Assembly: GCA_013368375.1 (NCBI GenBank)
Contig: JAACJP010000006.1
Coordinates: 1,054,001-1,118,000 of the forward strand
Origin: Tricholomella constricta
Lineage: Eukaryota > Basidiomycota > Agaricomycetes > Agaricales > Lyophyllaceae
DNA length: 64,000 bases
Direction of reading: 5' to 3'
The position numbers were made by a program, and so were the translations under genes. A model generated the notes under the pieces. The model ran no database searches, had not been told where the DNA came from, and saw only the letters and a program-made list of their open reading frames with translations. The number at the start of each line of letters is the position of its first letter. Within the stretch, counting starts at the first letter, position 1. This document shows, piece by piece, positions 17,544-60,174 of the stretch.

Positions 17544-17549
17544 CATCTG

Positions 17550-35149: not shown

Positions 35150-35169
35150 GGCTGAGGCGACGACGTGCA

Positions 35170-35930: not shown

Positions 35931-35936
35931 TTTGAG

Positions 35937-38221: not shown

Positions 38222-38797
38222 ATGTTGTTCTATTACTCCTTAGCGGCGGCGTTTCTAGCACTAATGGTTGCATGTGAGTCTATGAGCAACTCAGAAGGTG
38301 TATCACTCAAGGATTAATTCGATTCCGCAGTCTTCCGCTACCGTGCCACAATACTTCCGCACATCCATGTACCAGACCGAATGAGAACAATGTTCCCGAG
38401 ACTCGGCAATTATACACCGCTCTCAACGTTCTCGCAGCAAGTCAATGCAGGAATGTCATCTTCAGCCTTCGATATTGAGGCTAATTTGAGGGATGGTGAT
38501 TCTCGGTCTGGATTGGATGAAAGAGGCACCCAGGAGGTGATGGAAATCATGCGACAACAACGTGTCAAGTGAGTCAATGAACAGTAGCGCAAGTGTCGTG
38601 ATCAGTCTGTGTTGACCTTCGCAAAAGTTTTGACCAGGCCAGGCTGATACGACACAATCGTATCCTTGCTCAAAATGGTATTGACCCCTCAGGTTAGTTT
38701 CCAACCCTAAAGTCTCCCCTTGTATAACTCAGTGGTTTTTTCCGTCCAGGCATGCCCCTGGACTCCAAAGCCGTCACCCGTCTTTGATTCCGCCGCA
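38222..38797 (+). CDS. DUF2015 small single-pass membrane protein, 130 aa
   Basis: Four exons: 38222-38273, 38331-38568, 38628-38692 and 38760-38797, with canonical introns and closing phases. The N-terminus LFYYSLAAAFLALMVAFF is one membrane anchor. The C-terminal signature FDQARLIRHNRILAQNGIDP then SGMPLDSKAVTRL is that of the fungal DUF2015 family, and total length fits. Role unknown. It is transcribed away from the Smr gene, with starts about 230 bp apart, so they may share a promoter region. Confidence 0.85.
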
Positions 38798-40090: not shown

Positions 40091-40096
40091 TCGAGG

Positions 40097-42505
<2,409 letters not shown>

Positions 42506-42757
42506 AGGCAAATCCGTTGTTTGTAAATTAACGATAGATACGTGCACGAGCTGCTGATCTTTTCATGATTCATTTGCTTGTGATCCAAGGCTTCATCAGT
42601 TCAATGTATGAACAAAGAACGCGACTCATTATTTGCGTGGCAATAAGGTGGAAGATATAGACTTCGCAGCCGTCGTTGAGAGGCACTCGTCGACGAGGGC
42701 ATGGCTCCCGTTTATGGATCTAAAAATAAGTAGTTGCCTTTTCAAGAATTCAGGTTC

Positions 42758-42901
42758 GAGGGCGCCCAGGGGGGAACCAATCGTGCAATCCGTGAAATGA
42801 TGATACCGTCCGCACCCCTCCGTGAGAATTGATGAGTCTGACAGCCGAAGCGCCGCTGTCACTGTCGGCATCACGGCACTTCCGAATTGGGAGGGCGTCA
42901 G
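42758..42901 (-). repeat. Inverted duplication, left arm (about 145 bp)
   Basis: Matches the reverse complement of 43480-43631 with a few changes and small gaps. Both arms end outside at GGGCGCCC. Spacer is about 580 bp. No target duplication found. Confidence 0.85.
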
Positions 42902-43479
42902 CGCGCTCGAGGCCGCCTCTCATGTTCTCAAGACATAAACACTTGTTATTATTGCTTATTCCTGTCTGGATCTTTTAAGTAAGGTAAGTCAGATCTACCT
43001 CTCTTCCCACTCTCCATGTCTTCAACTATCACTGCAAGCCCATCATTATCTGGTATGGTGTTTTCCTGCCTCCATTTCTTAGTCAGTTCAGCCTGAACTC
43101 CCATATTTATCTCTTCCTTCTTTGTAATAAACATATCCACCATGAGCTAGGCAGGTATCTCAGGTGGCTTCCCATCTACAGAATGATCAATGAGAAGATG
43201 GAACATCATATTATATTTCCAGATTGTTCTTGGGCCAGCCAGAGAAGGAATGCATAAAGGGCAGTGTATGGGAACATTGGTGCAGGGTGAGGTTGCAGAA
43301 CATTTCTGTAGAATGGACCCCAGTATGTGGATCTATGATGGTTGTGAGGTTAGCACCATTACTGAAGGCCACAGTGACTGGGTGAAGCACTGGGGGTACT
43401 GGTGGGGTCATGTATGTTTGCCGATGGGCTATAGATGAGGGGAAACTGCGAGAGATAAATAAACTGCGAGGGAGCACGA

Positions 43480-43631
43480 CTTGACGCCCAAGCTCACCCA
43501 ATTCGGAAGTGCCGTGATGCCGACAGTGACAGCGGCGCTTCGGCTGTCAGACTCATCAATTCTCATGGAGGGGTGCGGACGGTATCATCATTTCACGGAT
43601 TGCACGATTGGTTCCCCCCTGAGGGCGCCCA
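43480..43631 (+). repeat. Inverted duplication, right arm (about 150 bp)
   Basis: Partner of 42758-42901. The pair would fold into a long double-stranded RNA if transcribed. The spacer 42902-43479 holds no recognised gene. Confidence 0.85.
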
Positions 43632-43772
43632 AAGAAACTGCCAGCAATATTTTCTTCATGGCTTCAATTGACAGTTCAACTCATGGCTCTGAATGCTGGA
43701 GCGCCGTAGAATCCTAGCACTCTTACTATTCTACTCATAATTTAATATCTCCTAGTCCACATTCTAGGTATA

Positions 43773-44324
43773 TTGAATGATTATAGTTGTTCTTGCCTTT
43801 ACCGAGCGCTGAGGATTCCACATTCTAGACCAGATCAGGCCATCAAGCTCCAGGCCAACCGCTTGATGAACACCATGAGAGCGCTTAATGAAGTTCGATT
43901 GCGAAAAGAGGAAGACGCCAATTTCTGCAAATACATGTTCTCTGCGATCCACCGCGTCCCGCTCGAAATTCTCGTCCAAATTTTCAAATATACTTCTTTG
44001 TACCCAATACCTGGTCAGACATCTGAATCACCGCTCGGTTTATCTCACGTTTGCTCTACCTGGCGAGATGCTGCATTAAGCTGTTCCAGCTTCTGGAATC
44101 GACTTGTAATCAGATCTTATAAATTCAGAACCCCACATCGGGCGGTCGGCACTTTGACAAAGACATGGCTTGGTGACTCCAACATTTCCTGTCCATTGGT
44201 TTTCTCCTTGACCATGCCTGGAGAATACATCGATCTTGTTGTAATGTACTCAGTCTGTTATGGGGGAAACGACTGTATTAGGTATGTACCTGTTGTGGTG
44301 TACTGTAATACTATTTGTGAGTAA
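43773..44324 (+). pseudogene. F-box protein, truncated copy
   Basis: LMNTMRALNEVRLRKEEDAN and IHRVPLEILVQIFKYTS then SHVCSTWRDAALSCSSFWNR match the gene at 2523-3820 closely, including the intronless N-terminal half. Similarity ends near 44240 after LTMPGEYID, where the reading frame runs into the repeat at 44249. The LRR-like half is absent. Confidence 0.75.
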
Positions 44325-44383
44325 AGTCCCGTTAATAAATAAGCGCGGCCACATACCTCAGTCTGTTATGGGGGAAACGACTG
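44249..44383. repeat. Short direct repeat (27 bp) at the break of the F-box copy
   Basis: CTCAGTCTGTTATGGGGG and the following AAACGACTG occur at 44249-44275 and 44357-44383. The TGTTATGG start is LTR-like, so this may be the remains of an LTR insertion that cut the F-box copy. Confidence 0.5.
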
Positions 44384-44389
44384 AGGTAT

Positions 44390-45290
44390 CTGTCCGATCG
44401 ACTTATCGATATATGCGAGTGGTACTGTGCAGTACCACATATGCTTCCGCTCCTCCATCTTTTCTGCGCGCCATCACGTGGTCTCCGGCACGTCAATTAG
44501 CGCAAGTCGGTAAACAACAGATCTCACTTCCCTGAAATAAATTACTTTGAGCATCATCTCCGTTTCGCCCCGCTTGTCCATGCTTTCTATTGATCTCTCA
44601 CACTGTGAACATGAAGATGCCCTTATGTCCTTTTTAAGTTGCCAGGGGGCAGCCTTCCAATGTTAGAAACTCTGACACTTTGTCAGCATTTGGGGCGCAG
44701 AGACTCGACTGCGCAAATGACAGTTTTTCGATGATGCCCACCTCTGTGCAAAGTCATCATCATTATCACACCTATACTCCTTCATTCATCCCTCATTCTA
44801 CTTCCTTGGAGCCAGCTGGCCCACTGATCAGGGAAACCTCCATCTGCTAATTTATGACAAAATATCAGTAAACTTGGTATTATCCAAATAATCTTTTGAT
44901 ATTTTGATAACTTTGATATTCAGAAATAACTGACAAGATATCCTATGTTCTGAGGTTTTCAAATGCACATGCTTGAACAGAGAACATGCGTGGGCAGGAA
45001 TGACAATGATGAACCTTGTACGGAACAGCAATGATCTAAAAAAATATGGTGAAGTCCATTCAGACTCCGCTTTAATTCCTATCAAGTCACGGGATGTTGA
45101 AACTGAATGCTGATTTTTCCTCTGACATGGTCCTTGCCTCTTCCCTCCCTGCATCCATATCCACCACGCTGTGCGTGTGTAATGGCAATTTGTTGCTTTA
45201 TAATGCTTTTGTCCTCCTGCACACAGGCTGTACTGTAGCCCTTGACTGTTACTCCATGTCCTAATCCGCCATTGCCTGTTCTGTTGGCAT
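44390..45290. other. Intergenic region
   Basis: A 148-codon minus-strand frame (44852-45298) shows no known domain. Nothing else recognised. Confidence 0.4.
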
Positions 45291-45297
45291 GTCAGCA

Positions 45298-45803
45298 ATG
45301 CCCGGTCATAAACAATCTCGAGATAGGCAACTCAGGTACGTCCCTATCATTTTTATTGCTCACGGCTGACATGTGTTCTCTAGCTTTCAACCAACTGGGC
45401 CCCGCCATCACCGTTCGATTCTTGTGCCCCCACCATTTGTTCCTCCCATCTCCGCTGTGGGAGCATTCCTCCAACATGTATGTTCATTCCTCCTACTCCT
45501 CCCCGTTCTACTCACCTCATACCTCTATTCTCTGGATTGCTTTCCACCATAGACAAGTGATTACAAGCACACACCAAAAGACAACTTACAGATGGGTGGG
45601 AGAAGAAATGCTACATGGTGCGTCTTCAGTAGTACCTGACCACATGTCCAGTATACTGATTACAGCCAGCCTACAGGTTCCGATGTTGCACACAAAACTG
45701 GCTGCTCAAAATTTGCACCTCTCCCGCTACCCAGACAAGGTTTCCAGGCAGATGTTGGACTGCAGATCGTCCTGCAGTGGGGCAGATCTTAGTCGGTATA
45801 TAG
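45298..45803 (+). CDS. Possible small spliced gene, 107 aa, unknown
   Basis: Four segments (45298-45335, 45384-45477, 45553-45617, 45677-45803) are linked by three GT-AG introns of 48, 75 and 59 nt with matching phases, reading MPGHKQSRDRQLSFQPTGPR at the start and ending at TAG 45801-45803. I recognise no domain. The chain of good splice sites is the only support; it could be a gene fragment carried by a repeat. Confidence 0.3.
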
Positions 45804-45924
45804 TCACAATCTTGTATCGTAGCCAAATAATCATTCAAGTTGTAATTATGCTTATTATCCATTCATACCTCTCAATTATCTTGCAATTTCATCGGTATTC
45901 TATGCGACTGCACCAGATAATTAT

Positions 45925-45959
45925 CTTGCATCGTTGCCCATCTGCCAATAGATTGTAGT
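45925..45959 (+). repeat. Dispersed 35-bp repeat, copy 1
   Basis: TGCCCATCTGCCAATAGATT and flanks occur here and at 56567-56601, on either side of element B. The second copy ends exactly where the copia LTR begins. Confidence 0.7.
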
Positions 45960-46085
45960 ACATTGTAGACAAACATGTGTGAGTTGGGGATGGAAGGTCG
46001 GGCACTAATTGCCAGGCCTCCAATTCACGAGGCCGATGGGGGACGGGAACGGGTCACCAATGGCCTCACTCGTGTTTGTCTATGA
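45955..46085. repeat. Possible short MITE-like repeat with imperfect inverted ends
   Basis: The ends carry AGACAAACATGTGTGAG and, inverted, AGACAAACACGAGTGAG, about 100 bp apart. No target duplication is certain. It lies next to element B. Confidence 0.35.
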
Positions 46086-46130
46086 CAAAAAGGGAGAGGA
46101 GGGTGGGGAAAAAGGCAAGTAAATGTGAGG

Positions 46131-46135
46131 GTGTG
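46131..46135. repeat. Target-site duplication of element B, GTGTG
   Basis: GTGTG precedes the left LTR and follows the right LTR at 56439-56443. The target is a GT-rich stretch. Confidence 0.8.
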
Positions 46136-46327
46136 TGTAACGGGCGTTACCGAATATGGTAGCGATCGTTGTTTGTCTTTGTTTATTTCTAAAGGTGCTG
46201 GCCATATATAGCCAGCACCTCTGTATTATATAATCTTTAGACTTATACATACCTACATCTACACACAATCCAATCAGTGGTCGTGTTTAGTTTGGTGTGA
46301 ACTCCTAAGTCTATCCACACCCTTACA
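46136..46327 (+). repeat. 5' LTR of element B
   Basis: 192 bp. It includes a perfect 10-bp hairpin (46193-46220, AGGTGCTGGC paired with GCCAGCACCT) whose loop is CATATATA, a TATA-like sequence. Confidence 0.95.
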
Positions 46328-46383
46328 GTTTTTTAAACACCCTTACTTCAAGGGAACACCCCTAAAACATTTCAATTCCAAAA

Positions 46384-48990
46384 ATGTCCAACAAAAAGAA
46401 GACTTCGAAACCGAAGCCTTCTGACCAAAACCGGTCGGGATCCGTGGCGCCGGACAATCCGAAGCCGCGAGAAGAGAATCCACCGGGAAGTGGAGTCGCC
46501 GGGAGCGGCGACAGAGTGGAGCCTAAGCGTGACGTGGCAAAGTCACACCCAGATGATAGAAACTATCATCTAGAGGACGAGCGCAGCAGCGCTCGACCTC
46601 AGAGCGCAATTTTGACAAGGCCCGTCAGTATCCGAGAAGGGGGCTCCCAGGTGGGACCCGGTTGGAGCGACCGGAAACCCAAAGAGGAACCCGTATCGGG
46701 CACCTCGCAGGAACGCCAGGGCGTGTTTCCTGCGCCCTTCGATAATATATCGAGGAGCTCAGTAAAGATGCGGGATGACGAACATGGTCACCCAGCAATA
46801 TTTGGCACCAGTGAACTCACTGATGTGCCCGCATCGCGATCGTCAAAGATGATGTCGACCGCAGCCCGACGAAATCGCCGGGCTGAGAAGAAACCAGCGA
46901 AACGAGAAAGCAGCGGAACGCTGCCTTCGTCATCTGTGGTGGATGACCGTGATTTATTAGTGGAAAGCATAGTATTAAACATACGGATGTTTAGCAGGGA
47001 CGGCATCATGCCTCCCCGAGATGTGCTAGTTAACCTAGTAAACGACGCGTTTGAAAAATGCGTCGAAGCGACCGGGGGACAATCGGCCCTCCGAAAAGAC
47101 CAGGAGATAGTAGTAGAATCCATCGTTCTACAACTAAGATCAGGAAGCCGGAAGGGAGTAACTCCCTCCCGGGCACAGCTCAGCTCTCTTGTGGAAGAGG
47201 GGCTGAGGAAGTATGATGAAGTGTTCGAGCAGGTGGAATCACCACTCGTACAACAGGACCACGAGGAACCATACCGCCAGGTTGTAACCCAGCGGGACGT
47301 AGCCTTACCATCGTTAGATACGATGGAAGCCGTAAACCAAAGTTTGCGGCAGCCTCGCCAGCAAGACGAGACAAGCTCGCAGGCGCGCGTGAGACACGCA
47401 GCCTACGAACGGGCGATGAACCCACCCAAGGCGGAACCAGCAGCGACTTCATACAGTCGGACCTGGGATTTATCAGGAGAAGGCCCGACGTCATATAAAC
47501 GAGGGCCCTCGTGCGACGACGAAATCGTTACGCACTGCGCAGAACTGCCTAGTAGGCGGGTCACCGAGGCGGTGAGAGGTAGCGGACGCAACAGTGTTGC
47601 GACCACAAGGCCGCTTCCAGACCCACGACTGGAGGCGGCAAACCCAGGCGGATACGGTGGAGAGGAGGACAACTCGGAAGCCGAGGAGAACTCGGAAAGC
47701 GAGTTCGAAGGAGGGCACACTAATGCGCCGCTTGCACCAGTGAGACCGGAATACGGGTCCGGTGGGCGAGGAACGACGACGCCACGCCCGACTCATGCTA
47801 GCCACCCAACGGGCGGCTGGGATGGACGGAGTAATCCTCCGAACAACCCACAGTACTACGGGGGAATACGACTACCGAGTCGCACTCCGGGGATACACTA
47901 TGGAGGAGGCCAGCAGCAGTTGGTAACTCCACAACGGCCGGTAAGGTCGTTCGGGGCGAGCGGACTGCAGCGCCAAGGAGAGTATCTCCTGAAAGTGCAT
48001 GGTCGATATCATGCAACGATTGATGAAAAGTTGGATAGCATTATAGCTATGCAACAGGGAGGAGCGAGGCCTGGAGCACTGCGAGTGCCCATGCCCGAGG
48101 AATATAACGGGGCGCCAAGTATGGAAGAATTCGATACATGGCTATATAGCGTGCTCCGCTGGATGGAGATCAACCAGCTTGGGGGACAGGACCGGGAGCG
48201 AGAGCGAATCTCGTACGCAGGGATGTACCTCAAGGGGGCCGCCGCTGTATGGTTTACGGACAACGTCGACGGTATTCACCGGCGACGTCGAGACTGGACG
48301 TTCAAGGACGTCATTACCGGATTATATGACCGGTTTATTCATGAAGCATCGTTGCAGGATGCTTATGTAGGGTTCGAACGCGCTGTGTATAGCGCAGATG
48401 GCGGAATAAATGAATTCTTCCATCAATTAAAGAGATATGCGGAACGGATGGTAATGCCACCCGACCCGTATACATTCAAACGGCGGTTTATGACCGGTAT
48501 CCCAAGATACCTGCGCAAGGAAATCTTGAACAGGGGATTCACGGCGGAGACGTCGCGAATGCGAGACATACTCGAAGCCGGGCTCAAAATTGAGCAGGCA
48601 AACCGAGTACTTCGCGGATACGATGATTATGAGGCAGTAGCCCGAAAATCATCGGAAAAGAAGGATACCGCTGTAGCGCGGGCTCCAACGAGAACGTATG
48701 AGGGTGGGAGCCGACCACCCTACAAGCCGACAGGTCCGGGAGGACAACGGTCAGAACCGAAATCGGACGGTAAGAAACCGCCAGCGACGCCTGCGAAGGG
48801 CGTAGACGGAGGGACGAAGCCCTCAGGCGAGAAGCGGCTAGCCTGCTTCGATTGCGGCAGCCTGGAGCATTTTGCGAGAAGCCGCAAGTGCCCTAAGAAC
48901 AAGAGCAGCACTGCGCGACTGAACGCGGTGCGGGATATCGTGGACGATACGTCGGACACGGAAGTGGCTGGACGCAGCCACGATGTATGA
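46384..48990 (+). CDS. Gag of element B, 868 aa
   Basis: Starts MSNKKKTSKPKPSDQNRSGS, 57 bp after the LTR. A long basic, Ser/Arg/Pro-rich N-terminal half is followed by the Ty3 Gag core (PMPEEYNGAPSMEEFDTWLY through FHQLKRYAERMVMPPDPYTF) and RYLRKEILNRGF. One zinc knuckle, CFDCGSLEHFARSRKC, is near the end. The frame ends at TGA 48988-48990 and stays open in the same frame beyond it into the protease. Confidence 0.9.
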   Translation: MSNKKKTSKPKPSDQNRSGSVAPDNPKPREENPPGSGVAGSGDRVEPKRDVAKSHPDDRNYHLEDERSSARPQSAILTRPVSIREGGSQVGPGWSDRKPKEEPVSGTSQERQGVFPAPFDNISRSSVKMRDDEHGHPAIFGTSELTDVPASRSSKMMSTAARRNRRAEKKPAKRESSGTLPSSSVVDDRDLLVESIVLNIRMFSRDGIMPPRDVLVNLVNDAFEKCVEATGGQSALRKDQEIVVESIVLQLRSGSRKGVTPSRAQLSSLVEEGLRKYDEVFEQVESPLVQQDHEEPYRQVVTQRDVALPSLDTMEAVNQSLRQPRQQDETSSQARVRHAAYERAMNPPKAEPAATSYSRTWDLSGEGPTSYKRGPSCDDEIVTHCAELPSRRVTEAVRGSGRNSVATTRPLPDPRLEAANPGGYGGEEDNSEAEENSESEFEGGHTNAPLAPVRPEYGSGGRGTTTPRPTHASHPTGGWDGRSNPPNNPQYYGGIRLPSRTPGIHYGGGQQQLVTPQRPVRSFGASGLQRQGEYLLKVHGRYHATIDEKLDSIIAMQQGGARPGALRVPMPEEYNGAPSMEEFDTWLYSVLRWMEINQLGGQDRERERISYAGMYLKGAAAVWFTDNVDGIHRRRRDWTFKDVITGLYDRFIHEASLQDAYVGFERAVYSADGGINEFFHQLKRYAERMVMPPDPYTFKRRFMTGIPRYLRKEILNRGFTAETSRMRDILEAGLKIEQANRVLRGYDDYEAVARKSSEKKDTAVARAPTRTYEGGSRPPYKPTGPGGQRSEPKSDGKKPPATPAKGVDGGTKPSGEKRLACFDCGSLEHFARSRKCPKNKSSTARLNAVRDIVDDTSDTEVAGRSHDV

Positions 48991-49794
48991 TGCGGCGGCG
49001 AACGACCAGCAGCAACAGCGCCCGTAGAACCAGAAGAGAGCGAGACGCCTCTTCTGGGGGAGCAATATGAGTCCGAAGGGGAGGACTATGCGTTGGAACA
49101 GTACGAGGAGTACGGTTCCGACGACGACAGAGACACAGTCGAACGACTGTGCTTCGGGAGGACCCTCGAGGATGACTCGGGGGAGGAGGGAATTCCACTA
49201 TTAGTGGAAGTCAGCGATAGTGAGTCGGAAGACGAGGGAGAGGCCGCACAGATGTTCGCGGCGAATACAGCGGCTGGGACGGGGACGGGAACCCGACCCA
49301 TTGTGGTTAAGAAGTCTACACGACTTCTTAAACGTCCAACGCGCAAAGCGCAGGAGCGCCAATGCTTTACGGCATTGGTAGAAATTAATGGGCTGAAAGC
49401 GTTCACCCTATTTGACTCGGGATGCACGGCAGAGGCCGTGTCTCCCGAATTTGCCAAAGTGGCGAAAATGAAAGTGCACCAACTGGAGGAAGTGGTGCCG
49501 CTACAGTTGGGAACGAAGGGTAGTCGATCAGTGATCAACTACGGAACGACAGTCCCAATGAAGTATGAGGCGATAGACGCGCAAGTTTACTTTGATATAG
49601 TAAACTTGGATAAATACGACGCCATTATTGGCGTCGCATTGATGAGGCAGCTGGAAATCGAACTGGATTTCCGGCATAACTGTGTTCGGATAAGCGGGAG
49701 TCCTGCTCCGACGTTTACGGTCGAGGAGGAGACCCGAGAAATGGCGCGACGAAGCGCATTGAGGCGCAGCGACGCAGGGTATGGTCAGGAATGA
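48991..49794 (+). CDS. Protease region of element B, in frame after Gag UGA
   Basis: Open in the Gag frame from codon 48991. After an acidic linker comes ALVEINGLKAFTLFDSGCTA with the retropepsin triad DSG, then YDAIIGVALMRQLEIELDF. It matures the polyprotein. The first ATG (49093) would also give a free protein, but lying in the Gag frame argues for a Gag-Pro fusion by stop readthrough. Ends at TGA 49792-49794 followed by CTA. Confidence 0.8.
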   Translation, partial: CGGERPAATAPVEPEESETPLLGEQYESEGEDYALEQYEEYGSDDDRDTVERLCFGRTLEDDSGEEGIPLLVEVSDSESEDEGEAAQMFAANTAAGTGTGTRPIVVKKSTRLLKRPTRKAQERQCFTALVEINGLKAFTLFDSGCTAEAVSPEFAKVAKMKVHQLEEVVPLQLGTKGSRSVINYGTTVPMKYEAIDAQVYFDIVNLDKYDAIIGVALMRQLEIELDFRHNCVRISGSPAPTFTVEEETREMARRSALRRSDAGYGQE

Positions 49795-50331
49795 CTACCG
49801 CGGGAAGGCAGAGTGCGCGTGGTCGACGATGTAGACGAGCGACCACGGTATCGGGGACTGGCAACGAGCGAGCCTCTGATAGTGTGTAACGACGAACGGT
49901 CGGACACAGACGGGAGGGGGTTAGGAATAACCCCAGAAGAGAAGCCGAGTGAAGGCACGCGGACGTCGGAAGGGCGATGGCGAGTGAGGATCGAGGAGGA
50001 GGAGGACGTGGATGCGCCCACTCCGGGAACGGGATTACCGAGGTTATTCCCGGTAATCATGGAGGACGACGATGTGTTGTCGACCGAAGACATTGAAAGA
50101 ATGGTGGACGAAGCACCCGACATTCTTAGAAGCGGACGAAGCCGCTACCACACACTGAAGGATCTGCGCGAACTCGAGGAGATCGTACAGGAATTTACAA
50201 GGACGCGGTACCCGGAACGGGTACCACGGGAAGCAATACGTGCGGTATTCCCGGTAATACCGGAAGTGGATGATCCGTTTACGGATGAGCACGTCAGCGA
50301 GTCGCTGCGTGCGGTGACGGAGAGACACTGA
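49795..50331 (+). CDS. Linker domain between protease and RT of element B
   Basis: Same frame, bounded by two UGA codons (49792-49794 and 50329-50331). Reads VDDVDERPRYRGLATSEPLI and an acidic, helical stretch; no catalytic motif. It is probably the Pro-RT connector of the polyprotein. Confidence 0.65.
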   Translation, partial: LPREGRVRVVDDVDERPRYRGLATSEPLIVCNDERSDTDGRGLGITPEEKPSEGTRTSEGRWRVRIEEEEDVDAPTPGTGLPRLFPVIMEDDDVLSTEDIERMVDEAPDILRSGRSRYHTLKDLRELEEIVQEFTRTRYPERVPREAIRAVFPVIPEVDDPFTDEHVSESLRAVTERH

Positions 50332-53300
50332 AAGCGGGTAGCTCAGATGGGCGCCCTTACAGAGGAGGATATCCCGCGATTGCGGGACGCATGGATGGAG
50401 TCCTGTAAGGACATCATGAATGGGGTACCGGAGGAACTACCTCCGGTACGAGGGGTTAATCACCACATTAATCTCGTCGACGATGACAAGCAGTACCATT
50501 ACCACTTGCCACGGTGCCCGGATTCACTTCGGACACAACTGATGGAGAAGATCGCGCGTTACACACGCGCGGGATGGTGGGAGTCGGTGCAGACGTCACA
50601 AGCTGCACCAATGCTTTGTATACCAAAGAAAGACGGCCGACTGCGAACAGCAGTCGACGGTCGGAAAAGGAATGCGAACACGATTAAGGATGTGACGCCG
50701 TTCCCGGACCAGGACCAGATCCGACTGGATGTGGCACGAGCAAAAATTCGATCAAAAATCGATTTTTCGGATGCATACGAGCAAGTACGCGTCCATCCGC
50801 CGGACGTGCGCAAAAGCGCGTTCGCAACTGTGTTTGGCACATTTGTGAGCCACACAATGCAGATAGGGGACTGTAACGCGCCAGCGACGTTTCAGAGAGT
50901 CATGACGATGATATTTCGAGACTTTATCGGAATATTTCTACATGTATACTTGGACGACTTGTTCGTATACAGCGCTACGGTAGATGAGCACGAGAAGCAT
51001 CTCAAGCTCGTTTTTGACAAGATAAGGGAGAACAAGTTCTACCTTAAGAAGGAAAAGTGTGAACTTTACTCCGATAAAGTCGATTGCCTAGGGCATGTAA
51101 TCGACGACAAGGGATTGCACGCGACAGCGGACAAGATGGCGCGTATCCGCGAATGGCGGAGACCGCGAAACTACGGCGATATCCAGAGATTTCTGGGTCT
51201 TGTACAGTATCTGGCGCACTTTCTGCCAGATATATCGTCGTATACGACACCACTGTCAGCAATGACACAGAATGGACAGGCCTTCGCATGGAGGCCCATC
51301 CACGAGTCATGCTTTCAAGCAATTAAGGACGCGTGTTGCAAAACACCTGTCCTGGTGCCATTGGACCATGGCAAGGATGAACCCATATGGGTTATCTGCG
51401 ACGCGTCGGTATCCGGCGTGGGCGCAATGTACGGACAGGGACCGACATGGCAGACATGTAGGCCGGCGGGATTTATGTCCCGCAAATTTACGGATGCTCA
51501 AAGACACTATCGTGTGTTCGAGCAAGAGACGATAGCGATACTAGAAGCCCTCCTTAAGTGGGAGGATAAGCTTATAGGGTACCGCATACATGTGGTAACC
51601 GACCACAAGGCACTGGAGTTCTTCCAGACGCAGAGGCGGCTATCTAGCCGCCAGACGAGATGGATGGAATATCTATCTCGCTTTGACTTTGACATTCGTT
51701 ATGTCAAAGGATCACTAAATAAAGTAGCGGATGCGCTGTCCAGATATCACGAGAGTGATGTCTGGGATGACAGATTCACGATGAACGACTACGTTAATGC
51801 AGATGTTCGACTCGACCCAAGACACGACGACTTGCCGTGGGATAGGGTACGAGAAGTGGTGGATAAGGTCGTGGAACGACAGATCCAGCAAAAAGCGTTT
51901 AAGCAGGAGCACAGCAGAATAGCGGTGCTCCGGGATTTGGTGCAAGAGCGAGATGTGAGGGCGGCAGAGCTAGCGGCCGCCGCCGAGAACGGCGACGCGG
52001 GGGAGTCGGTCGCGAACAGTGCGGACGACCCCACCGTATTTCAGTCTCGGGAACGCGGAGCGGACCTGAGATCGACAGTCGAGAACGGGGAGGGGAATGA
52101 GATATTCCTCTCCGCGGTGAAAGCGGGGTACGAGACGGATCCGCTGTTTAAAAAGGTAGTGAGCGCACCCGCTCAGCACCCATCCTTTCGGGTAAAGGAA
52201 GGACTGGTGTGGGGGAAGAATAGGGGCGGAGAGGAGGTGCTATGCATCCCCTCCGCAAAGAACGGGGCACAATCACTGCACGGGCAAGTGATTGAACGTG
52301 CGCACCGAGTAGTGGGCCACTTCGGTCCACAACGTACCGCCGACTATGTGCGACGGTGGTACTGGTGGCCACGACTTCAGCGTGAAGTCGAGGCGTTTTG
52401 CGCGTCCTGCCAGACGTGTATAACGACGAAAGGAGAGTACCGAGCACCGGCGGGGCTGGTGCACTCGTTACCGATACCCACGAAGCCATGGGAGTCGATC
52501 GGGATGGACTTTGTAGGTCCGTTCCCGGAAGTGGATGGATACAACTACTTGTGGGTAGTGGTATGCCGGATGACGTCCCAGGTGCACCTAGTACCACTGA
52601 ATACGAGAACGACGGCGTCACAGCTGTCGTGGATTTACATGAGGGAGGTAGTGCGACTGCACGGTCTCCCGAGCTCGATCGTATGCGACCGGGACCCCAA
52701 GTTCACATCCAAGTGGTGGAAGGAACTACACCGACTGATGGGGTCAATGCTATTGATGTCTACAGCGTTCCATCCTCAGACGGATGGTGCCACAGAGAGG
52801 GCGAATCGGTCGATCGCGCAGATCATCCGATCGTGTATACGACCAGACCAGAGGGACTGGGTCGTAGCGCTGCCGATGGTCGAATTCGCAATTAATTCGA
52901 GTATTAGCGCGGCAACGGGGTTCGCCCCGTTTGAGGTTAACCACGGCTATATGCCAACGGTGATGACGAAGATCGACCCGGGGACGAAAGCGCCACCGGG
53001 GGTTCAGGAGTTCGCAGCGAATGCGCTGCGAAACATGGCAGCGGCGCACGACGCGATTATCGCGGCACGCACATTTCAGCGACACCACGCGAACACGCGG
53101 AGGAGACCTGATCCAGTGATAGGTAAGGACGACCTTGTCTATCTATCAACGGATAACCTGTCCCTACCGTCCGGGAGGGCGGGTAAACTACTACCTAAAT
53201 ACGTGGGCCCGTATAGGGTCCTCGAGGTGATTCCGGAGACGTCCAACTATGTGTTGGAGTTACCAGAAGCTCTTAGGAAGCGCAGGATACACCCGCGTTT

Positions 53301-53700
53301 CCACATATCGAGGATTCGCCCACATCAGGCGAATGACGACGCTCTGTTTCCTAACAGAGCGACGCCGGAGGCCTATGATTTTGGGGCCCCCGACGAAACC
53401 GAATACTATGTCGACGAAATCGTCGGGCATCAGTGGACCGGGAAGGAGGTGTCCTTCCTGGTCAAGTGGACAATGGGCGACTCTACATGGGAGCCGCTCA
53501 AGACATGTGAGGAGCTCGAAGCGCTGGACAGCTACCTCGAACTCATTGGGGTGAAGGACTGGACAGCCCTTCCCCGGCGGGCGACGGTGACGACGCGCGC
53601 TAAGACGGGGGCGCGACGAATGGCGTCGAGACATACGGCCCGCGAGGGCGCAGTCACGGGACCGAACAGGTCTCAGAGTGGGAAGAAAAAATCGGCATAA
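50332..53700 (+). CDS. Pol of element B: RT, RNase H, integrase, chromodomain
   Basis: Open from after UGA 50329-50331; first ATG at 50347 (MGALTEEDIPRLRDAWMESC). RT has CIPKKDGRLRTAVDGRKRN and HVYLDDLFVY. RNase H has ICDASVSGVGAMYG, YRVFEQETIAILEAL and VVTDHKALEFF, all three acids present. Integrase has the HHCC finger (HRVVGHFGPQ ... CASCQTC), SIGMDFVGPFPEVDG, IVCDRDPKFTSKWW and HPQTDGATERANRS, so DDE is complete. A chromodomain-like end reads YYVDEIVGHQWTGKEVSFLV and STWEPL. Ends TAA 53698-53700. Catalytic residues suggest a competent copy if the UGA codons are read through. Confidence 0.9.
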   Translation, partial: KRVAQMGALTEEDIPRLRDAWMESCKDIMNGVPEELPPVRGVNHHINLVDDDKQYHYHLPRCPDSLRTQLMEKIARYTRAGWWESVQTSQAAPMLCIPKKDGRLRTAVDGRKRNANTIKDVTPFPDQDQIRLDVARAKIRSKIDFSDAYEQVRVHPPDVRKSAFATVFGTFVSHTMQIGDCNAPATFQRVMTMIFRDFIGIFLHVYLDDLFVYSATVDEHEKHLKLVFDKIRENKFYLKKEKCELYSDKVDCLGHVIDDKGLHATADKMARIREWRRPRNYGDIQRFLGLVQYLAHFLPDISSYTTPLSAMTQNGQAFAWRPIHESCFQAIKDACCKTPVLVPLDHGKDEPIWVICDASVSGVGAMYGQGPTWQTCRPAGFMSRKFTDAQRHYRVFEQETIAILEALLKWEDKLIGYRIHVVTDHKALEFFQTQRRLSSRQTRWMEYLSRFDFDIRYVKGSLNKVADALSRYHESDVWDDRFTMNDYVNADVRLDPRHDDLPWDRVREVVDKVVERQIQQKAFKQEHSRIAVLRDLVQERDVRAAELAAAAENGDAGESVANSADDPTVFQSRERGADLRSTVENGEGNEIFLSAVKAGYETDPLFKKVVSAPAQHPSFRVKEGLVWGKNRGGEEVLCIPSAKNGAQSLHGQVIERAHRVVGHFGPQRTADYVRRWYWWPRLQREVEAFCASCQTCITTKGEYRAPAGLVHSLPIPTKPWESIGMDFVGPFPEVDGYNYLWVVVCRMTSQVHLVPLNTRTTASQLSWIYMREVVRLHGLPSSIVCDRDPKFTSKWWKELHRLMGSMLLMSTAFHPQTDGATERANRSIAQIIRSCIRPDQRDWVVALPMVEFAINSSISAATGFAPFEVNHGYMPTVMTKIDPGTKAPPGVQEFAANALRNMAAAHDAIIAARTFQRHHANTRRRPDPVIGKDDLVYLSTDNLSLPSGRAGKLLPKYVGPYRVLEVIPETSNYVLELPEALRKRRIHPRFHISRIRPHQANDDALFPNRATPEAYDFGAPDETEYYVDEIVGHQWTGKEVSFLVKWTMGDSTWEPLKTCEELEALDSYLELIGVKDWTALPRRATVTTRAKTGARRMASRHTAREGAVTGPNRSQSGKKKSA

Positions 53701-53731
53701 GCCGAGCGTCACAAACACGACAGTGTGACGT

Positions 53732-53751
53732 GTTGAGATTTTTTTTTCTTC
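53732..53751 (+). promoter_or_regulatory. Splice-acceptor-like tract before ORF3 of element B
   Basis: A run of T bases (GATTTTTTTTTCTTCAG) ends 14 nt before the ORF3 start at 53766. It resembles a polypyrimidine tract plus 3' splice site, so ORF3 may be made from a spliced subgenomic RNA. No donor in the leader could be fixed. Confidence 0.45.
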
Positions 53752-53765
53752 AGCACCATCAACGG

Positions 53766-56060
53766 ATGGAGCGACCACCGCGCGATGACCGACCAGACAG
53801 GCCGGACCACCCAATGGGTGGTCCCGATAACAACGACAACGCGAGGGGCGGAAGAGAATTCCGTCCCAGAGACAGCCGACGGGATGGGGAGCGTGACCGA
53901 AAGCGGTCGCGATCCCCAACGAGAGGACGTGAACGGTCCCGAGAGAGGGATAGCGGTGGCAGATACCTGTCGCCGCAACGAGAGAGTGGGAGTGGCCGCG
54001 CGCGAGAACGCTCACGGTCAGTGGAACAAGCAGCGAGTGCAAGCGAGCTGAGGTGGACCTACAATGAGCAGGTCAACCTGATCAGTCACCCGAGAGGGTG
54101 TACGACGTGCACGGCGTATGCAGCGCACATGCTGATGGATTCCATCACGGAAGCGGAGGGCCTACAGAGAGCCCACCGCAAACAAAAGGAACATATTAAG
54201 AGCGCCGACTTGGCAGCTCTTAAGGTTGAGAGGGAGGACTTGCGCAACAAGTTGCGGTCCTTCGATACGGATTATCGACGCTTGTGCGCCGATTATGATG
54301 AGCTTCGCGAGCAGTTCTATGCTCGCGAAAACGAGTGTAGGGAGCTGCGCGGGCAGTTGGAGGCTCGCGACAAGGAAGATGGAGGCGGGAAGCGAAAGCG
54401 CTCCCGCACCGACGACGGTGAAACCATCGCGTCATACGAGGCAGGACCGACATCGTCGAGACTGTCTCCAGCGAGTCAGCTGCCGGGCGGGCTACCGGCA
54501 GAACATGAGGATACAGACGCCAGTCATGGCGACTATATGGATATCGACGTGGGGACGTACCCGACCCCTGTCGAGGCGTACGGGGTATCCGTGCCCGTCG
54601 GGGCGCAGACTACGACGCCGGCCATTCGTAGGCCGGCGCCAGTCAACCTGGTGGCGCCATTGGGGTCTACGGACCACATCAGGCTACCCGGCGGGGCTCA
54701 TCTGAGCGCCGTCGATCATACGCTCCGATTCGGGAAGCGAGCGCAACGCGCCGCCGAGAACGAGCGAATGGGGCTGCCTCCCCCGCGGATGGGGATGCCT
54801 GCAGGAGGAACCGGGATGCCCGCGTCAGCGGGAGAGCTGGAGGCTTGGATAGCCGCAGCCAATATCCCAGGCAACGAGTTTGCGTTGCAGCGAATGAAAG
54901 CATTCGTTGCAGTCTGCCAGCAGATTGCAGACGCCAACCGCACAGAGGTGATGCGGTCGGCAATGACACAATGGCGACTCCCTACATGGGCGAAGGCAAA
55001 GCAGGCTGCCGTGACGGCGAAGTACGCCGTGGGCAAGGGGCCGAAACCTGTGAAGGTTCCGAACCCGAACTATGGTGACCCAGCGGAGACCTGGGCAGCA
55101 TGGTTGTACCGGAATCGGGCAACCATCGTTAACAATGGCCGACCCCAGTACCCGGGGACGGTAGTAGGACCTGGGGGAGTGTCCTTGACGCACATCCGCG
55201 GCATGAACATCATCATGCCACGCGCGCTGAGGCGTGTCGCCGACCTGGCGGCAATGAGGAATCGAACTCGATTCCTCCAAATGGCCTGTGAGTTGATGGG
55301 TACAGTGAATCTGTACCGCAACACGCTGCAATTGCTCGGAAGGAGCGTTGCAGAAGTCGAGACAGTCGAGCGGTTCGCACAGCCGCTCGACAATGTGACG
55401 ATGGAAGACATCGCCGCATTTTTTGCTCAACAAGGAGTAAGCGTCGAACGCTTCGTCGACGCTCAGCCTTTCGGGATGGAGTGGCTCCGGGACTACCAGG
55501 GCGGCCACACCGAGGATCCCGAGGCCAGCGCCGTGTTTTCACGGATGGCCAACTATGCTTTGACCCAGCATGACTGGACTCAAGACACGTTGCCGGGGGA
55601 AGCGACGTGGTGGTATCCACCATCACGACGAACTAACGTGCCAGTAGCTGGCGCGAGTGGAGTATCGACGATGTCGATGTCCAGTATAGCAGGGTCATCG
55701 GCCGTAGGGTCGGTGACCGCGTCAAGAACGCCGTTGACGGTGGCACACCAGTTGACGGCGGGAGTCCGGGCGGCCCTGAACTATGGGTCATCCGAGGCCG
55801 GACCTTCGGGGTCAGGCGCGGGGCCGTCGGGAAGTGCGACGACCTCAGGGGGAGCAACAGCGGCGGCGGTATCGGCGCCCACACCAGGTCTCGGGGCTGG
55901 GGTGGGCAGTGTAAGCGAAGGGCCACCCGCAAACGCGGGGGGACCCAGTGACCCGATGCAAGGGACTGGCGGAGAGGTGCCAGACGACCCCATGGACGGC
56001 TCGGTCTCAGGGCGAGCACCGTCGGGGTTGGAGGACGGCGAGGTGGAGGGCGCGGCGTGA
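53766..56060 (+). CDS. Accessory ORF3 of element B, about 764 aa, unknown
   Basis: I prefer the ATG at 53766 (MERPPRDDRPDRPDHPMGGP) over an upstream one at 53730. Regions: an Arg/Asp/Ser-rich, RS-like N-terminus (KRSRSPTRGRERSRERDSGG), a Cys-containing motif RGCTTCTAYAAHML, a coiled coil (LAALKVEREDLRNKLRSFDT through ENECRELRGQLEARDK), a basic signal KRKRSR, a central domain (AWIAAANIPGNEFALQRMKA through RALRRVADLAAMRNRTRFL) and a Ser/Gly/Ala-rich acidic tail. No membrane segment is visible, so it is not an Env protein. A nuclear RNA- or chromatin-binding partner of the element is a reasonable guess. The position resembles that of the accessory gene of element A, which is on the opposite strand. 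Confidence 0.8.
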   Translation: MERPPRDDRPDRPDHPMGGPDNNDNARGGREFRPRDSRRDGERDRKRSRSPTRGRERSRERDSGGRYLSPQRESGSGRARERSRSVEQAASASELRWTYNEQVNLISHPRGCTTCTAYAAHMLMDSITEAEGLQRAHRKQKEHIKSADLAALKVEREDLRNKLRSFDTDYRRLCADYDELREQFYARENECRELRGQLEARDKEDGGGKRKRSRTDDGETIASYEAGPTSSRLSPASQLPGGLPAEHEDTDASHGDYMDIDVGTYPTPVEAYGVSVPVGAQTTTPAIRRPAPVNLVAPLGSTDHIRLPGGAHLSAVDHTLRFGKRAQRAAENERMGLPPPRMGMPAGGTGMPASAGELEAWIAAANIPGNEFALQRMKAFVAVCQQIADANRTEVMRSAMTQWRLPTWAKAKQAAVTAKYAVGKGPKPVKVPNPNYGDPAETWAAWLYRNRATIVNNGRPQYPGTVVGPGGVSLTHIRGMNIIMPRALRRVADLAAMRNRTRFLQMACELMGTVNLYRNTLQLLGRSVAEVETVERFAQPLDNVTMEDIAAFFAQQGVSVERFVDAQPFGMEWLRDYQGGHTEDPEASAVFSRMANYALTQHDWTQDTLPGEATWWYPPSRRTNVPVAGASGVSTMSMSSIAGSSAVGSVTASRTPLTVAHQLTAGVRAALNYGSSEAGPSGSGAGPSGSATTSGGATAAAVSAPTPGLGAGVGSVSEGPPANAGGPSDPMQGTGGEVPDDPMDGSVSGRAPSGLEDGEVEGAA

Positions 56061-56086
56061 GGGGCGGGACGACAGTACCGCCCGCG

Positions 56087-56120
<34 letters not shown>
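56087..56120 (+). repeat. A34 homopolymer after ORF3
   Basis: Thirty-four A bases follow ORF3 by 26 bp and are followed by T5 and a TATAAAAG-like box (56131-56138). It may be the trace of a captured poly(A) tail or simple expansion. Confidence 0.8.
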
Positions 56121-56124
<4 letters not shown>

Positions 56125-56207
56125 TGACATATAAAAGTATATGTCTATAGCCATCGAGAACACGATGGTGGACTTACACAAGTCTACTATCCAAACAACG
56201 GAATTGG

Positions 56208-56246
56208 GGATAGATCGAGCCGGGGGCTCGATCTAGAGGGGGAGAG
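56208..56246 (+). other. Hairpin and polypurine tract before the 3' LTR of element B
   Basis: GATCGAGCC and GGCTCGATC form a perfect 9-bp hairpin with a GGG loop, and AGAGGGGGAGAG then abuts the LTR, the usual plus-strand primer. Confidence 0.8.
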
Positions 56247-56438
56247 TGTAACGGGCGTTACCGAATATGGTAGCGATCGTTGTTTGTCTTTGTTTATTTC
56301 TAAAGGTGCTGGCCATATATAGCCAGCACCTCTGTATTACATAATCTTTAGACTTATACATACCTACATCTACACACAATCCAATCAGTGGTCGTGTTTA
56401 GTTTGGTGTGAACTCCTAAGTCTATCCACACCCTTACA
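56247..56438 (+). repeat. 3' LTR of element B
   Basis: 192 bp, one difference from 46136-46327 (TATTACATAATC here, TATTATATAATC there). Confidence 0.95.
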
Positions 56439-56566
56439 GTGTGTGTGTAAGACGACCGAGAGTCTACTAGGAAGAGGACGGAGGGAGAGAGTATGTATGT
56501 GTATCACGTGGCATATTCGGGACACAAGAATTCGCACCCAACTCGGGGCTCATCGGGGGTGGCACT

Positions 56567-56858: not shown

Positions 56859-57099
56859 ATAGATTATGGGCCCTGGTAGCCATCGTCAGCGCCCTCTGTG
56901 GCTGCAGACTTGACAGGCTTGCCGGCTTACCACTAGAGCAAAATCTCTGAATGCTCTCGCCCTATGGCTGAGAAAATTCTTAGATATTCTCTATGTTGTG
57001 TTGCTCGACGTGCATGAGCTATCTGCTCAACGTCTCACTTCTATTGGATGGACATGATGCTGATTGCGCTTCCTTGCAGCACTCCAAACTGCATCAAAC

Positions 57100-59704
57100 A
57101 TGTCTGCCAACTTCGCCACCCTTGTTCCTGTTTTTAACGGCACAAACTGGGCTGAATGGTCATCTGCCATGCAGGACTACCTTCGTTCCCAAGCCCTTTG
57201 GCAACTTGTCAAAGGTGGCAACCCACGTCCTGAAGTACAAGTAGGGTCTGATGGTAAAAACCTCCCCGAAACTAAGGAACATCGTGAATGGGACAACAGG
57301 GATGACCAGGCCCTTGGCATTATTCGCCTCAGGGTATCTCCAGAGATAAAGAACCAGATCAGTGGTAATTCCTCTGAGGAGTTCTGGCAAGCTCTTGAAA
57401 ATGCGTATTCGAAGCCTGGTGCTTCGTTACTCTTTGGAGACTTCCAGAAGGCCATCTCGTTCAGACTCTCAGGGTCTTCCAACCCTGAACCGGAGATAGG
57501 CAAGCTCAACCATTTGTTGGAGTGCCTTAGGGCCAATGAGGTCGATCTCCCTGAGTATGTGAAGGCAATGATCCTCATGTCCGCTATTCCTCAGAAATGG
57601 GACACCATTTCTGCCACCCTTCTCCAAACCACGGAGAAGGACAAACTCACGTTCAGCACCGTAAAGGCTGCTATCATGACGGAGTTTAACCGGCGCAACT
57701 CTGCCCCGGGTAATTCCCAGACGGCTAACAAAATGTCAGCTGTCAAACATAAAGGGAAGAACCCTGCCTGGAAAGGTCAAACTTCTGGTGGTAACATCGA
57801 GAATAAAGACAAGAAGGGCAAACGAGGCAAGCACAGTGGCAAATGGGTTAAGGAAAAGCAGGACAAACAGGATCTCTCCAGCTATGGCCACTCCCATGCC
57901 GCTTCCTCGATTGAAATCGATGGAGACACTCCAACCGTCGCTGCGCTCCTACAGCGCCTGCACAACCCCCCTCCCTCTCCCTTTGCTGCCCAGCGCTTTA
58001 CTGGCACTAGCACCTCATCTTCAGGGGTCTATCAGACCTATGAGAAGGCACGCGCTCTAGCGGAATGTCTCGATATTCTGAGGACCGCCCGCAACCTCAA
58101 ACCACTTGAGGAAATCTATGAAAGACGCGAGCCCACCCCTGAACGCGCCCCCAAGCGGCCGCGAATCGAGGAAGTAGAGGAGGAAGCTTTAGGCTGGGGT
58201 TCTGACGATGGCATGGACATGGACCCTGTCACTGGACACCGCGAGGACAGGCAAGTACCTTCTTTGCTCCACATATCGCTGGTTACTAATGCAAGTACAC
58301 AGTGCGCTCTTCGAGATTTAGCCGCGGACTGTAATTTTCGTACTTTGATATCTGCATTTGTACCACATGTATCTCTCAGCGTTATACGCCAAATTGACGA
58401 ACATTATGCGAATTGTGCGAAATGCAAAGGAAAAGGGAAAGAAATAGAAGTAGACACTGCAAACTGGATCATGGATTCAGGCGCATCTCTTCACTGCATG
58501 AGCAGAATTGAAGACTTTGCTGATTACACACCTGCGAAGAATCCTATCGCGGTCAAAACAGCAAGTGCCGATGCTGCACCTATTATGGTAAAAGGCTCTG
58601 GCACAGTCTTCATAACACACAAAGTAGAGAATGAAGATGGTATGGCTCGAGATATTACATCTCGCCTACATCCCGTCTTCTACATCCCCGTGTTAGATAC
58701 GCGTCTCCTTTCTATGGGAGAATTCCTGAACAATGGACTTTCTATTACTGGAAAAGCCAATAAATTAACGTTCAAGAAACATGGAAAACCTGTCCTAACA
58801 TGTACACCACACTTGCCAGGGCAAAATCTCTATTGGGTAGATTCTCGCACAAAGCTTGCTGAGAATGGCAATTATGCCAACACTACTATCCACAATGTAT
58901 CTTATGACACATGGCATAAACGCCTAGGACATCCGTCCAAAGACGTGATCCGAAATGCTCCGGACAATGTCACTGGAATACCGCGGAATCTCCAGATTCC
59001 TGCGAAATCACCCACATGTCCTGGATGCGCTCTTGGGAAGATGCCTTCAAAATCTTACCCACAATCTCAATCGCGTGCATCGAAGCTGTTCGAATTAATC
59101 CATTCGGACTTAAAGAGCTTCCCTGTCACTTCGTACCACAAGTACAAGTACATCACGACATTCCTTGATGATTATAATTCTCATGCCTGGACAATGAGCC
59201 TACACGCAAAGTCTGATGCTATCAAAGCATTGAGACAATTCGTTGTGATGGTGAAAAACCAGTATGGAGCCAATATCGAACGATGGCGCTCCGATGCAGG
59301 GGGAGAATTCAAATCGGAAGAGTTCCTTGATGAATTGCGCAATTTGGGAATCAAAATTGAGCAGAGCGCTCCTTACACACCACAACAAAATGGCCGTGCT
59401 GAATGCCTAAATCGGACCTTGATGGACAAGGCACAGGCTATTCGCTTCACTGCCTGCCTACCTGAGTCGTGGTGGGAATTTTGCGTTGAACACGCGGTTC
59501 ACCTTTACAACCGTACTCCTATGCGTCAGTTAGGGTGGAAAACTCCGGTTGAATCTCTGACAAAGAAGAAACCTTCTGTCGAGCATCTCCGAGTATTCGG
59601 ATGTGGAGCTTATGTTTACCTCCCTGAGGAAAGATGTGCAAATAAACTTGCGCCGAAGTCTGAGCTAATGATTTACATTGGCATTCCTGACGGGATCAAG
59701 GGAC
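57100..59704 (+). pseudogene. Copia Gag-protease-integrase polyprotein, interrupted
   Basis: Start MSANFATLVPVFNGTNWAEW is the standard copia Gag opening (UBN2-like region to about residue 215). Instead of a CCHC knuckle there is a Lys/Gly-rich basic stretch. Protease is WIMDSGASLHCMSRIEDF. Integrase has its HHCC finger (WHKRLGHPSKDV ... CPGCALGKM), FLDDYNSHAW, RWRSDAGGEFKS and PYTPQQNGRAECLNRT, so DDE is complete. The frame breaks after YIGIPDGIKG, where element C has inserted; the few residues after that are LTR sequence. Confidence 0.85.
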
Positions 59705-60174
59705 TGTTAGGGCGACCTCACGAGCAGAGCTGAGTCGTACTGGCAGAGGGGAATCCGAAGTTATATTAAGTACAGTGAGGAATGTAAAGAGGGGCTTACC
59801 TGGCAGAGGGGAATCCGAAGAGAATAGACTAAGGATCCCCAATGCCAGTGGGCCGACTATATACGAGTACTGTACATAATAATCAAGGAATGGTCTGCGG
59901 CGCGTGTATGGACACGTTCCCGATGCTGTCCGATCCTCGTGGCTCAGGGTACGGACACGAGTTGGGACAGCCGACATCGGGATGTCGGGTGGTCGGGATC
60001 GGCGTCGGGCGCGCGCAGGGAGAGATGGGAAACGACAGGAAGTGTGTAAGTATATACACCGACGCTTGGGTCGGAGCATCGGGGGTCGGGATCGCGAACG
60101 GTCGGGGGAGCGATCACATGAGCGGGGGGACGATCAGTGAGCGTCGGAGGGCGCGAAAGGGAGTTCCCCTAACA
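59705..60174 (-). repeat. 3' LTR of element C, 470 bp
   Basis: Ends are TGTTAGGG and CCCCTAACA. A 21-bp unit starting CTGGCAGAGGGGAATCC is repeated at about 59740 and 59800. The polypurine tract GAGGGGGGG abuts it on the minus strand. Confidence 0.85.

Follow-up and report, generated by a model that had tools for sequence, protein, structure and literature searches.

RNA viruses that carry genome-scale ordered RNA structure (GORS) show a folding-energy difference that is high along the entire coding genome, together with many consecutive stem-loops; their individual pairings are poorly conserved between relatives, with the total kept. The accessible part of PMC7642675 gives a folding excess of about 15% for SARS-CoV-2 and 7.5–10.7% for hepatitis C virus, with a record of 23.4% for a bird coronavirus, and the available sections of PMC3950689 describe structured viral RNA as less recognised in cultured cells. 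For retroelements, excerpts of PMC11381356 report stable regions in up to 30% of Ty1/Ty3 RNA, determined by SHAPE (selective 2'-hydroxyl acylation analyzed by primer extension), and excerpts of PMC8794818 propose template switching as a source of RNA hairpins. Here, we analyzed a 64,000-nt stretch of the Tricholomella constricta genome (contig JAACJP010000006.1, positions 1,054,001–1,118,000; hereafter the window), which contains element B, a complete-looking Ty3/Gypsy long terminal repeat (LTR) retrotransposon at 46136–56438 with TG...CA ends and a 5-bp flanking repeat, GTGTG. Element B carries a chain of short perfect hairpins through its LTRs and coding frames, and its RNA genome has probably been shaped by selection for genome-wide base pairing, acting mostly via synonymous positions.

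Perfect, non-overlapping stems with loops of 3–8 nt were counted over 46129–56440 and compared with 1000 dinucleotide shuffles. Element B contains 43 stems of at least 7 bp (the LTR hairpin entering twice, once per LTR) against a shuffled mean of 2.98 (maximum 9), 19 stems of at least 8 bp against 0.73 (maximum 4), and 13 stems of at least 9 bp against 0.18 (maximum 3). The first-pass annotation, which had drawn attention to these hairpins, expected about one 8-bp stem by chance in roughly 11 kb, an estimate that was about right. It had also proposed a comparison with shuffles preserving codons and dinucleotides. In 1000 shuffles per frame that preserved the protein, the codons, and the dinucleotides, the count of stems of at least 7 bp was reached in 0/1000 cases in each of the four frames, with 9 stems against 1.64 in the gag frame (46384–48990), 7 stems within 0.7 kb against 0.57 in the aspartyl protease frame (49093–49794), 12 against 1.62 in pol (50347–53700), and 8 against 1.58 in the open reading frame (ORF) 3 (53730–56060). 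At the threshold of at least 8 bp, gag alone was not significant (1 vs 0.33, reached in 279/1000 shuffles). Stems of at least 6 bp were most enriched at loops of 4–5 nt (7.6- and 9.3-fold), with an enrichment of 1.5-fold at loop zero, the lowest of the tight loops, and of 1.2–2.6-fold at 16–20 nt; this peak is the behavior required of real single-strand hairpins. The hairpin loops are A-rich (0.319 vs 0.258), and the spacing of the stems is not regular, with a coefficient of variation of 0.93, which is about random. Mirror repeats, counted as a control, showed no excess in element B (3 vs 4.0). Direct repeats numbered 43 vs 13.7, an excess of which the A-tract may be the source.

Comparison with the other elements of the window revealed no excess of stems of at least 7 bp in element A (pol 0 vs 1.02 and gag 0 vs 1.05, 1000 shuffles) or in element C pol (3 vs 1.90, with 281/1000 shuffles reaching 3). 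The copia element (57064–59733) showed a weak excess, with 3 stems against 1.07 at the same threshold (reached in 80/1000 shuffles) and 2 against 0.24 at at least 8 bp (reached in 21/1000). The initial view that A, C, and copia are unlike element B thus holds for perfect stems, but copia is structured when judged by folding energy. Positions 1–19888 of the window were without stem excess (5 vs 6.2 expected). These counts, together with the folding of the other ORFs given below, led us to reject the hairpins as a property of the whole region, with the exception of a mild excess outside the named elements at 30408–46128 (9 vs 5.2 stems of at least 7 bp, and 5 vs 1.2 of at least 8 bp in 30 shuffles).

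Analysis of local folding energy in 80-nt windows, given as z against codon shuffles, yielded values of −12.9 for gag, −6.4 for the protease, −15.8 for pol, and −11.3 for ORF3 of element B, which belongs to subfamily B1. The pol frames of the related subfamilies B2 and B3 gave −10.6 and −8.3, and copia gave −6.4; no folding excess was present in A pol (−0.1), A gag (−0.2), or C pol (−0.6). Among the copia loci of the genome, L054–L057 ranged from −6.6 to −9.6, and L052 and L053 gave +0.3 and +2.6. The window copia shares 97% identity over 718 nt with L054, L056, and L057, which therefore belong to the same family. This family has a sense-biased folding excess of 14–22%, depending on window size, with few perfect stems, and the copia family of L052/L053 has none. 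Folding as a property of all LTR elements in this genome is accordingly ruled out by A, C, and copia L052/L053. Eleven further ORFs of the window, candidate genes of which one lies inside element A, had z values of −2.1 to +5.1. In contrast to element B, the 757-codon ORF at 3819–6092 folds less than its own codon shuffles do (z +5.1, −17%). Over 350-nt windows compared with dinucleotide shuffles, the mean percentage excess (minimum folding energy difference, MFED) was 23.9% for B1, with 27/27 windows positive, 21.1% for B2, and 21.2% for B3, compared with 13.9 and 14.0% for copia, 4.0% for A, and 3.1% for C. The single-stranded RNA (ssRNA) phages used as yardsticks gave 26.8% (MS2), 23.0% (PP7), and 31.1% (Qbeta).

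The host genome assembly (44.1 Mb, 118 contigs) holds many copies of element B, and comparison of these copies revealed that the hairpin excess characterizes subfamilies B1 and B2. The B1 copies that are 98–100% identical, the divergent B1 copies (84–92%), and B2, whose pol is 81% identical to that of B1 in DNA and 91% in protein, are all stem-rich. In 14/14 loci with 3.0–3.4 kb of pol (L014–L027, L014 being the window's own copy), the pol of B1/B2 carries 10–13 stems against 0.4–1.5 expected. The pol of B3 (60% identical in protein) has 1–4 stems in 12/12 loci; in the 1.5 kb downstream of pol, B3 has 6 stems vs 0.2–0.5 in L032 and L034 and 4 vs 0.5 in L042.

The stems turn over rapidly between copies, and the amount of pairing does not. 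Counted with loops of 3–12 nt, pol has 16 stems in the window copy, 15 in L019 (92.4% identical to the window copy), and 17 in L022 (81.3% identical to it); the window copy has 8 stems in common with L019 and 7 with L022. As a null, the same codon changes were placed at random sites having the same starting codon, which leaves a total of 8.0 stems on the way from the window copy to L019 and 3.3 on the way to L022. Toward L019, 8 stems were kept against 5.3 in the null (within its range, maximum 10) and 7 were gained against 2.8 (maximum 6); toward L022, 7 were kept against 0.8 (maximum 3) and 10 were gained against 2.5 (maximum 6). The real relatives also folded more stably than the null, as measured by minimum free energy, in 8/8 comparisons of B lineages 92–80% identical (z −7.3 to −15.6; the comparisons share lineages and are not independent), with z of −2.0 and −3.9 in two comparisons of 98.7%-identical copies and −0.8 between two B3 copies. 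These results indicate that the amount of pairing is retained while the stems are swapped: among copies 92–80% identical, the pairing total is held nearly constant, and at least half of the stems are different. Many stems are lineage-specific, and these arose by few scattered changes, mainly third-position ones, and other lineages have partial stems.

Element B therefore shares with GORS both folding below that of sequence-order controls in 27/27 windows (z −6 to −16) and the turnover of pairings at a constant total, and as judged from its sequence, it appears to work like GORS outside the positive-strand RNA viruses that carry it. Its excess of 23.9% stands beside the 23.4% record in the accessible part of PMC7642675, the window being similar and the shuffle different. 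Unlike those viruses, element B is a fungal LTR retrotransposon rather than a vertebrate or positive-strand RNA virus, it has a DNA stage, and its stems are often perfect and strand-symmetric. The folding excess is similar to that of the ssRNA phages MS2, Qbeta, PP7, GA, AP205, and PRR1; these six phages pooled have their loop optimum at 3–4 nt (4–5 nt in element B), and individually they contain 0.9–3.1 perfect stems of at least 7 bp per kb, compared with 4.2 in element B. As in the Ty1/Ty3 and HIV-1 genomic RNA covered by excerpts of PMC11381356, well-folded stretches are scattered over the retroelement RNA, but those excerpts apparently report neither a codon-shuffle excess nor a hairpin lattice. 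The first-pass annotation knew of no description of such a pattern. The phenomenon has been described for RNA viruses, and our search of the open-licence PMC literature brought up no account of such genome-scale structure for LTR retrotransposons.

Selection on RNA structure was one of two causes suggested at the outset, and it is favored by the placement of substitutions described above, by the loop features, by the phage-level folding, and by a reduced number of synonymous changes in shared stems. For the last of these, stems were defined on the other lineages and changes were counted in the remaining one. Third-position changes amounted to 26/274 in stems common to at least three other lineages vs 441/2789 outside (p = 0.005; loops 11/66), 66/571 vs 421/2691 for stems of at least two other lineages (p = 0.012), and 133/1087 vs 388/2514 for stems of at least one (p = 0.013). 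This test replaced a simpler depletion at third positions within perfect stems (29/985 vs 521/7361), which we dropped as an ascertainment effect. Several observations weigh against selection for pairing. The reduction in shared stems is of moderate size, and stems of at least two lineages showed none at non-coding positions (16/190 vs 118/1473). Compensatory change among family members, which had been proposed as a check, was not found in overall excess, as double changes at stem pairs did not restore Watson-Crick pairing significantly more often than controls (39/84 vs 56/131, p = 0.67). Selection on RNA only should prefer the sense strand, so the strand symmetry of B1 and B2 (sense vs antisense MFED 23.9 vs 23.8% and 21.1 vs 22.0%) counts against a simple RNA explanation. 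Sense-strand G-U pairs are not consistently favored in B1/B2 either: ORF3 has a small gain, and gag, pol, and B2 pol have none. A first count of G-U vs A-C gave 12 vs 5 and 8 vs 3, and the B1-B2 comparison gave 12 vs 11 and 16 vs 10; once more lineages and the phage yardstick were included, no clear difference was present. The Watson-Crick-perfect stems without consistent G-U, which are common in B1/B2 and not in B3 pol, are incompletely explained by selection. Since strand symmetry is seen in the ssRNA phages Qbeta and PP7 too, and the six phages pooled have no clear excess of G-U over A-C, the symmetry of element B has less weight as counter-evidence. Folding is sense-biased in B3 (21.2 vs 14.1%), copia (13.9 vs 6.5%), and MS2 (26.8 vs 21.7%). 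In B3 and copia, G-U pairs contribute as expected solely on the sense strand, and MS2 similarly has a sense-strand G-U gain. The sense bias of B3 and copia points to RNA.

The other cause suggested at the outset was a mutation process that perfects quasi-palindromes. In one form of such a process, reverse transcription or host replication would produce a strand that folds back at a quasi-palindrome and copies its own other arm; stems would be perfected repeatedly, and protein selection would keep mostly synonymous outcomes. Such a mechanism is proposed for RNA hairpins in the available sections of PMC8794818, and it predicts the Watson-Crick-only, strand-symmetric stems seen in B1/B2. Element B resembles those template-switch hairpins in its perfect stems and in a clear hairpin inversion at 56211 in copy L005, and a scan for reverse-complement copies found more segments than the mirror and complement controls (26 vs 15 and 11 at at least two changes, 10 vs 4 and 6 at at least three, and 2 vs 0 and 0 at at least four). 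Among the 10 segments, the 56211 inversion is counted once in each direction, and some segments are counted in both L022 and L031; the sole convincing template-switch event of the scan is this inversion. Against copying in blocks, the changes in element B are mostly single or two-armed and mainly at third codon positions (29/50 coding changes). Of the stems with at least two lineage-specific changes, 9/11 were hit in both arms and 2/11 in one, and the arms were used about equally (24 changes in the 5' arm vs 31 in the 3' arm). Intermediate states are seen in different lineages, and among copies 97–99% identical, 3 of 52 listed difference clusters fall in the arm of a perfect stem of at least 6 bp. 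Block template switching is therefore a weak candidate as the maker of the stems and is largely unsupported. In addition, A and C, which are Ty3-type elements of the same genome, lack the excess, and the preference of B3 and copia for the sense strand points to RNA. A process that repaired mismatches singly would go unnoticed in these tests, and it too would reduce divergence in shared stems. On balance, we regard mutational perfecting as unlikely to be the principal cause, although stepwise correction merits consideration as a live rival. Strand symmetry would also follow if the hairpins were selected in single-stranded cDNA, for example by protecting or ordering the minus strand, or in RNA and cDNA together. 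Similar sense and antisense z values (B1 pol −15.8/−16.3, B2 −10.6/−13.3, and L019 −13.9/−15.7) and the lack of a consistent G-U preference fit selection in cDNA. It is nevertheless a distinctly improbable explanation, as B3 and copia share the life cycle and yet are sense-biased, as is L025 in z (−18.6 vs −14.1) though not in percent (26.1 vs 30.0), and as Qbeta and PP7 are symmetric too, though these phages have a minus RNA strand. That the hairpins are discrete cis-acting RNA elements, such as packaging, frameshift, or priming signals, seems more improbable still. The stems at 51687 and 53441 are kept in 10/10 of the B1/B2 rows compared, and the LTR and polypurine-side hairpins are mostly kept, but many stems are lineage-specific, and stems are located in all frames of the element. 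An Rfam scan gave 0 matches at the gathering score, with no known structured RNA family, and the 19 tetraloops comprise 18 different ones without a recurrent loop motif, which makes a set of protein-binding elements less likely. Nothing was found in favor of an artefact of composition or codon usage, and it can be practically discounted, given that in all four frames the codon- and dinucleotide-preserving shuffles stayed below the observed count.

In the reading we prefer, selection for base-paired RNA has probably shaped the whole RNA genome into the observed chain of short local hairpins, whose total is maintained; strong hairpins are spaced roughly 240 nt apart, with weaker ones between them. 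A self-folded RNA may be a poor substrate or target for fungal RNA silencing. Such silencing escape would be the likeliest benefit of the structure, by analogy with the observation, described in the available part of PMC3950689, that cultured cells recognize viral RNA less when it is structured. Domain matches suggest that the host genome encodes RNA-dependent RNA polymerase, Dicer, and Argonaute domains (18 matches to RdRP, 16 to Piwi, and 3 to Dicer_dimer, which are exon pieces, some below the cut-off). As a second choice, the structure might serve the compact packaging of the 10-kb RNA. Mutation and selection may also act jointly, with snap-back copying perfecting the stems of B1/B2 one mismatch at a time and the stems being kept because self-paired RNA escapes silencing; we consider this combination doubtful. 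If true, it would represent a mutational engine and a selective benefit that together build a self-shielding retrotransposon genome.

The individual hairpins, all on the forward strand, are given below as stem length in bp/loop length in nt. The 17 hairpins named in the first-pass annotation were all found in the sequence, including 6-bp stems at 47561 and 47587. Their dimensions were mostly exact, with two given too short (49582–49608, which is 10/7, and 54304–54329, which is 10/6). A further hairpin, placed at 50424–50450, has the described 10-bp stem and 5-nt loop and was drawn one base too wide on each side, the true span being 50425–50449; it is 9/5 in L019 and is absent or uncovered in the other compared copies. 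The 5' LTR contains a 10/8 hairpin with a TATA-like loop at 46193–46220, which recurs in the 3' LTR at 56304–56331. The LTR hairpin survives a double change from C-G to T-A in L007 (5' LTR) and in L010/L011 (3' LTR), and it has one A-C mismatch in L004 and L012. Further stems are located at 46551–46571 (9/3), 49307–49331 (10/5), 49617–49636 (8/4), 50207–50225 (8/3), 51687–51709 (9/5, one of the two kept in all rows), 52372–52390 (8/3), 53011–53032 (9/4), 53340–53361 (9/4), 53804–53824 (9/3, at the ORF3 start), 54616–54638 (8/7), 55256–55277 (9/4), and 55440–55463 (8/8). The 3' untranslated part contains an 8/4 hairpin at 56126–56145, and an 11/3 hairpin at 56211–56235 adjoins the polypurine tract. 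The latter is the hairpin inverted as a block in L005, and a double change from C-G to T-A preserves its stem in L010 and L011; both it and the LTR hairpin are kept in most copies covering them. The LTRs of B1 and B3 both start with TGTAACG followed by a near reverse complement (window 56247–56262; L051:1454–1473), forming a small terminal hairpin that is kept despite the wide divergence between B1 and B3.

The overall structure of element B follows the Ty3/Gypsy order, with LTRs, gag, protease, reverse transcriptase, RNase H, and integrase. The 5' LTR (46136–46327) and the 3' LTR (56247–56438) are 192 nt each and lie inside a 201-nt direct repeat (46129–46329 vs 56240–56440, 99% identity). 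The gag frame is Ty3_capsid-like (E 5e-5, 23.2 bits, below the Pfam cut-off of 29.1), the protease frame matches RVP_2 in Pfam, and pol contains reverse transcriptase, RNase H, integrase, and SH3_Tf2-1 matches. Like that of gag, the match of the integrase core (rve) is below the curated cut-off, and the integrase zinc-binding domain is above it. A single reading frame (46384–53700) holds gag, protease, and pol; in-frame stops break it in the window copy, and pol is open over 1301 codons in other copies. Pol relatives are 54–67% identical among the 120 of 2505 matches listed, with Mycena, Phanerochaete, Trametes, and Phlebia as named hosts, a distribution that by itself makes an agaricomycete host very probable; no relative of element B was confirmed among viral contigs. 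ORF3 encodes an orphan protein of 776 amino acids with an Arg/Ser-rich N-terminus. Pfam yielded no match to this protein, and none of 7994 scored candidates was a homologue at E ≤ 1e-3. An ORF occupies the same place in B3 (L032/L051) and resembles ORF3 weakly (24% across 147 columns; E 4e-4 when two sequences were compared). A T-rich stretch with CAG at its end at 53739–53753, inside the called start of ORF3, resembles a 3' splice site and could serve a spliced ORF3 mRNA. Between the stop of ORF3 and the 3' LTR, a run of 34 A is located at 56087–56120.

Genome-wide RNA structure has been tied to the persistence of RNA viruses, in which its cause is hard to test. In this one fungus, the structured element B stands beside the unstructured A, C, and one copia family and beside the sense-biased B3 and another copia family, forming a natural comparison. 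This comparison could serve two questions, namely whether self-folding protects against silencing and whether perfect stems are made by selection or by templated mutation. A further consequence of such structure is that, when copies of a retrotransposon are dated, its synonymous sites should not simply be assumed to be neutral.

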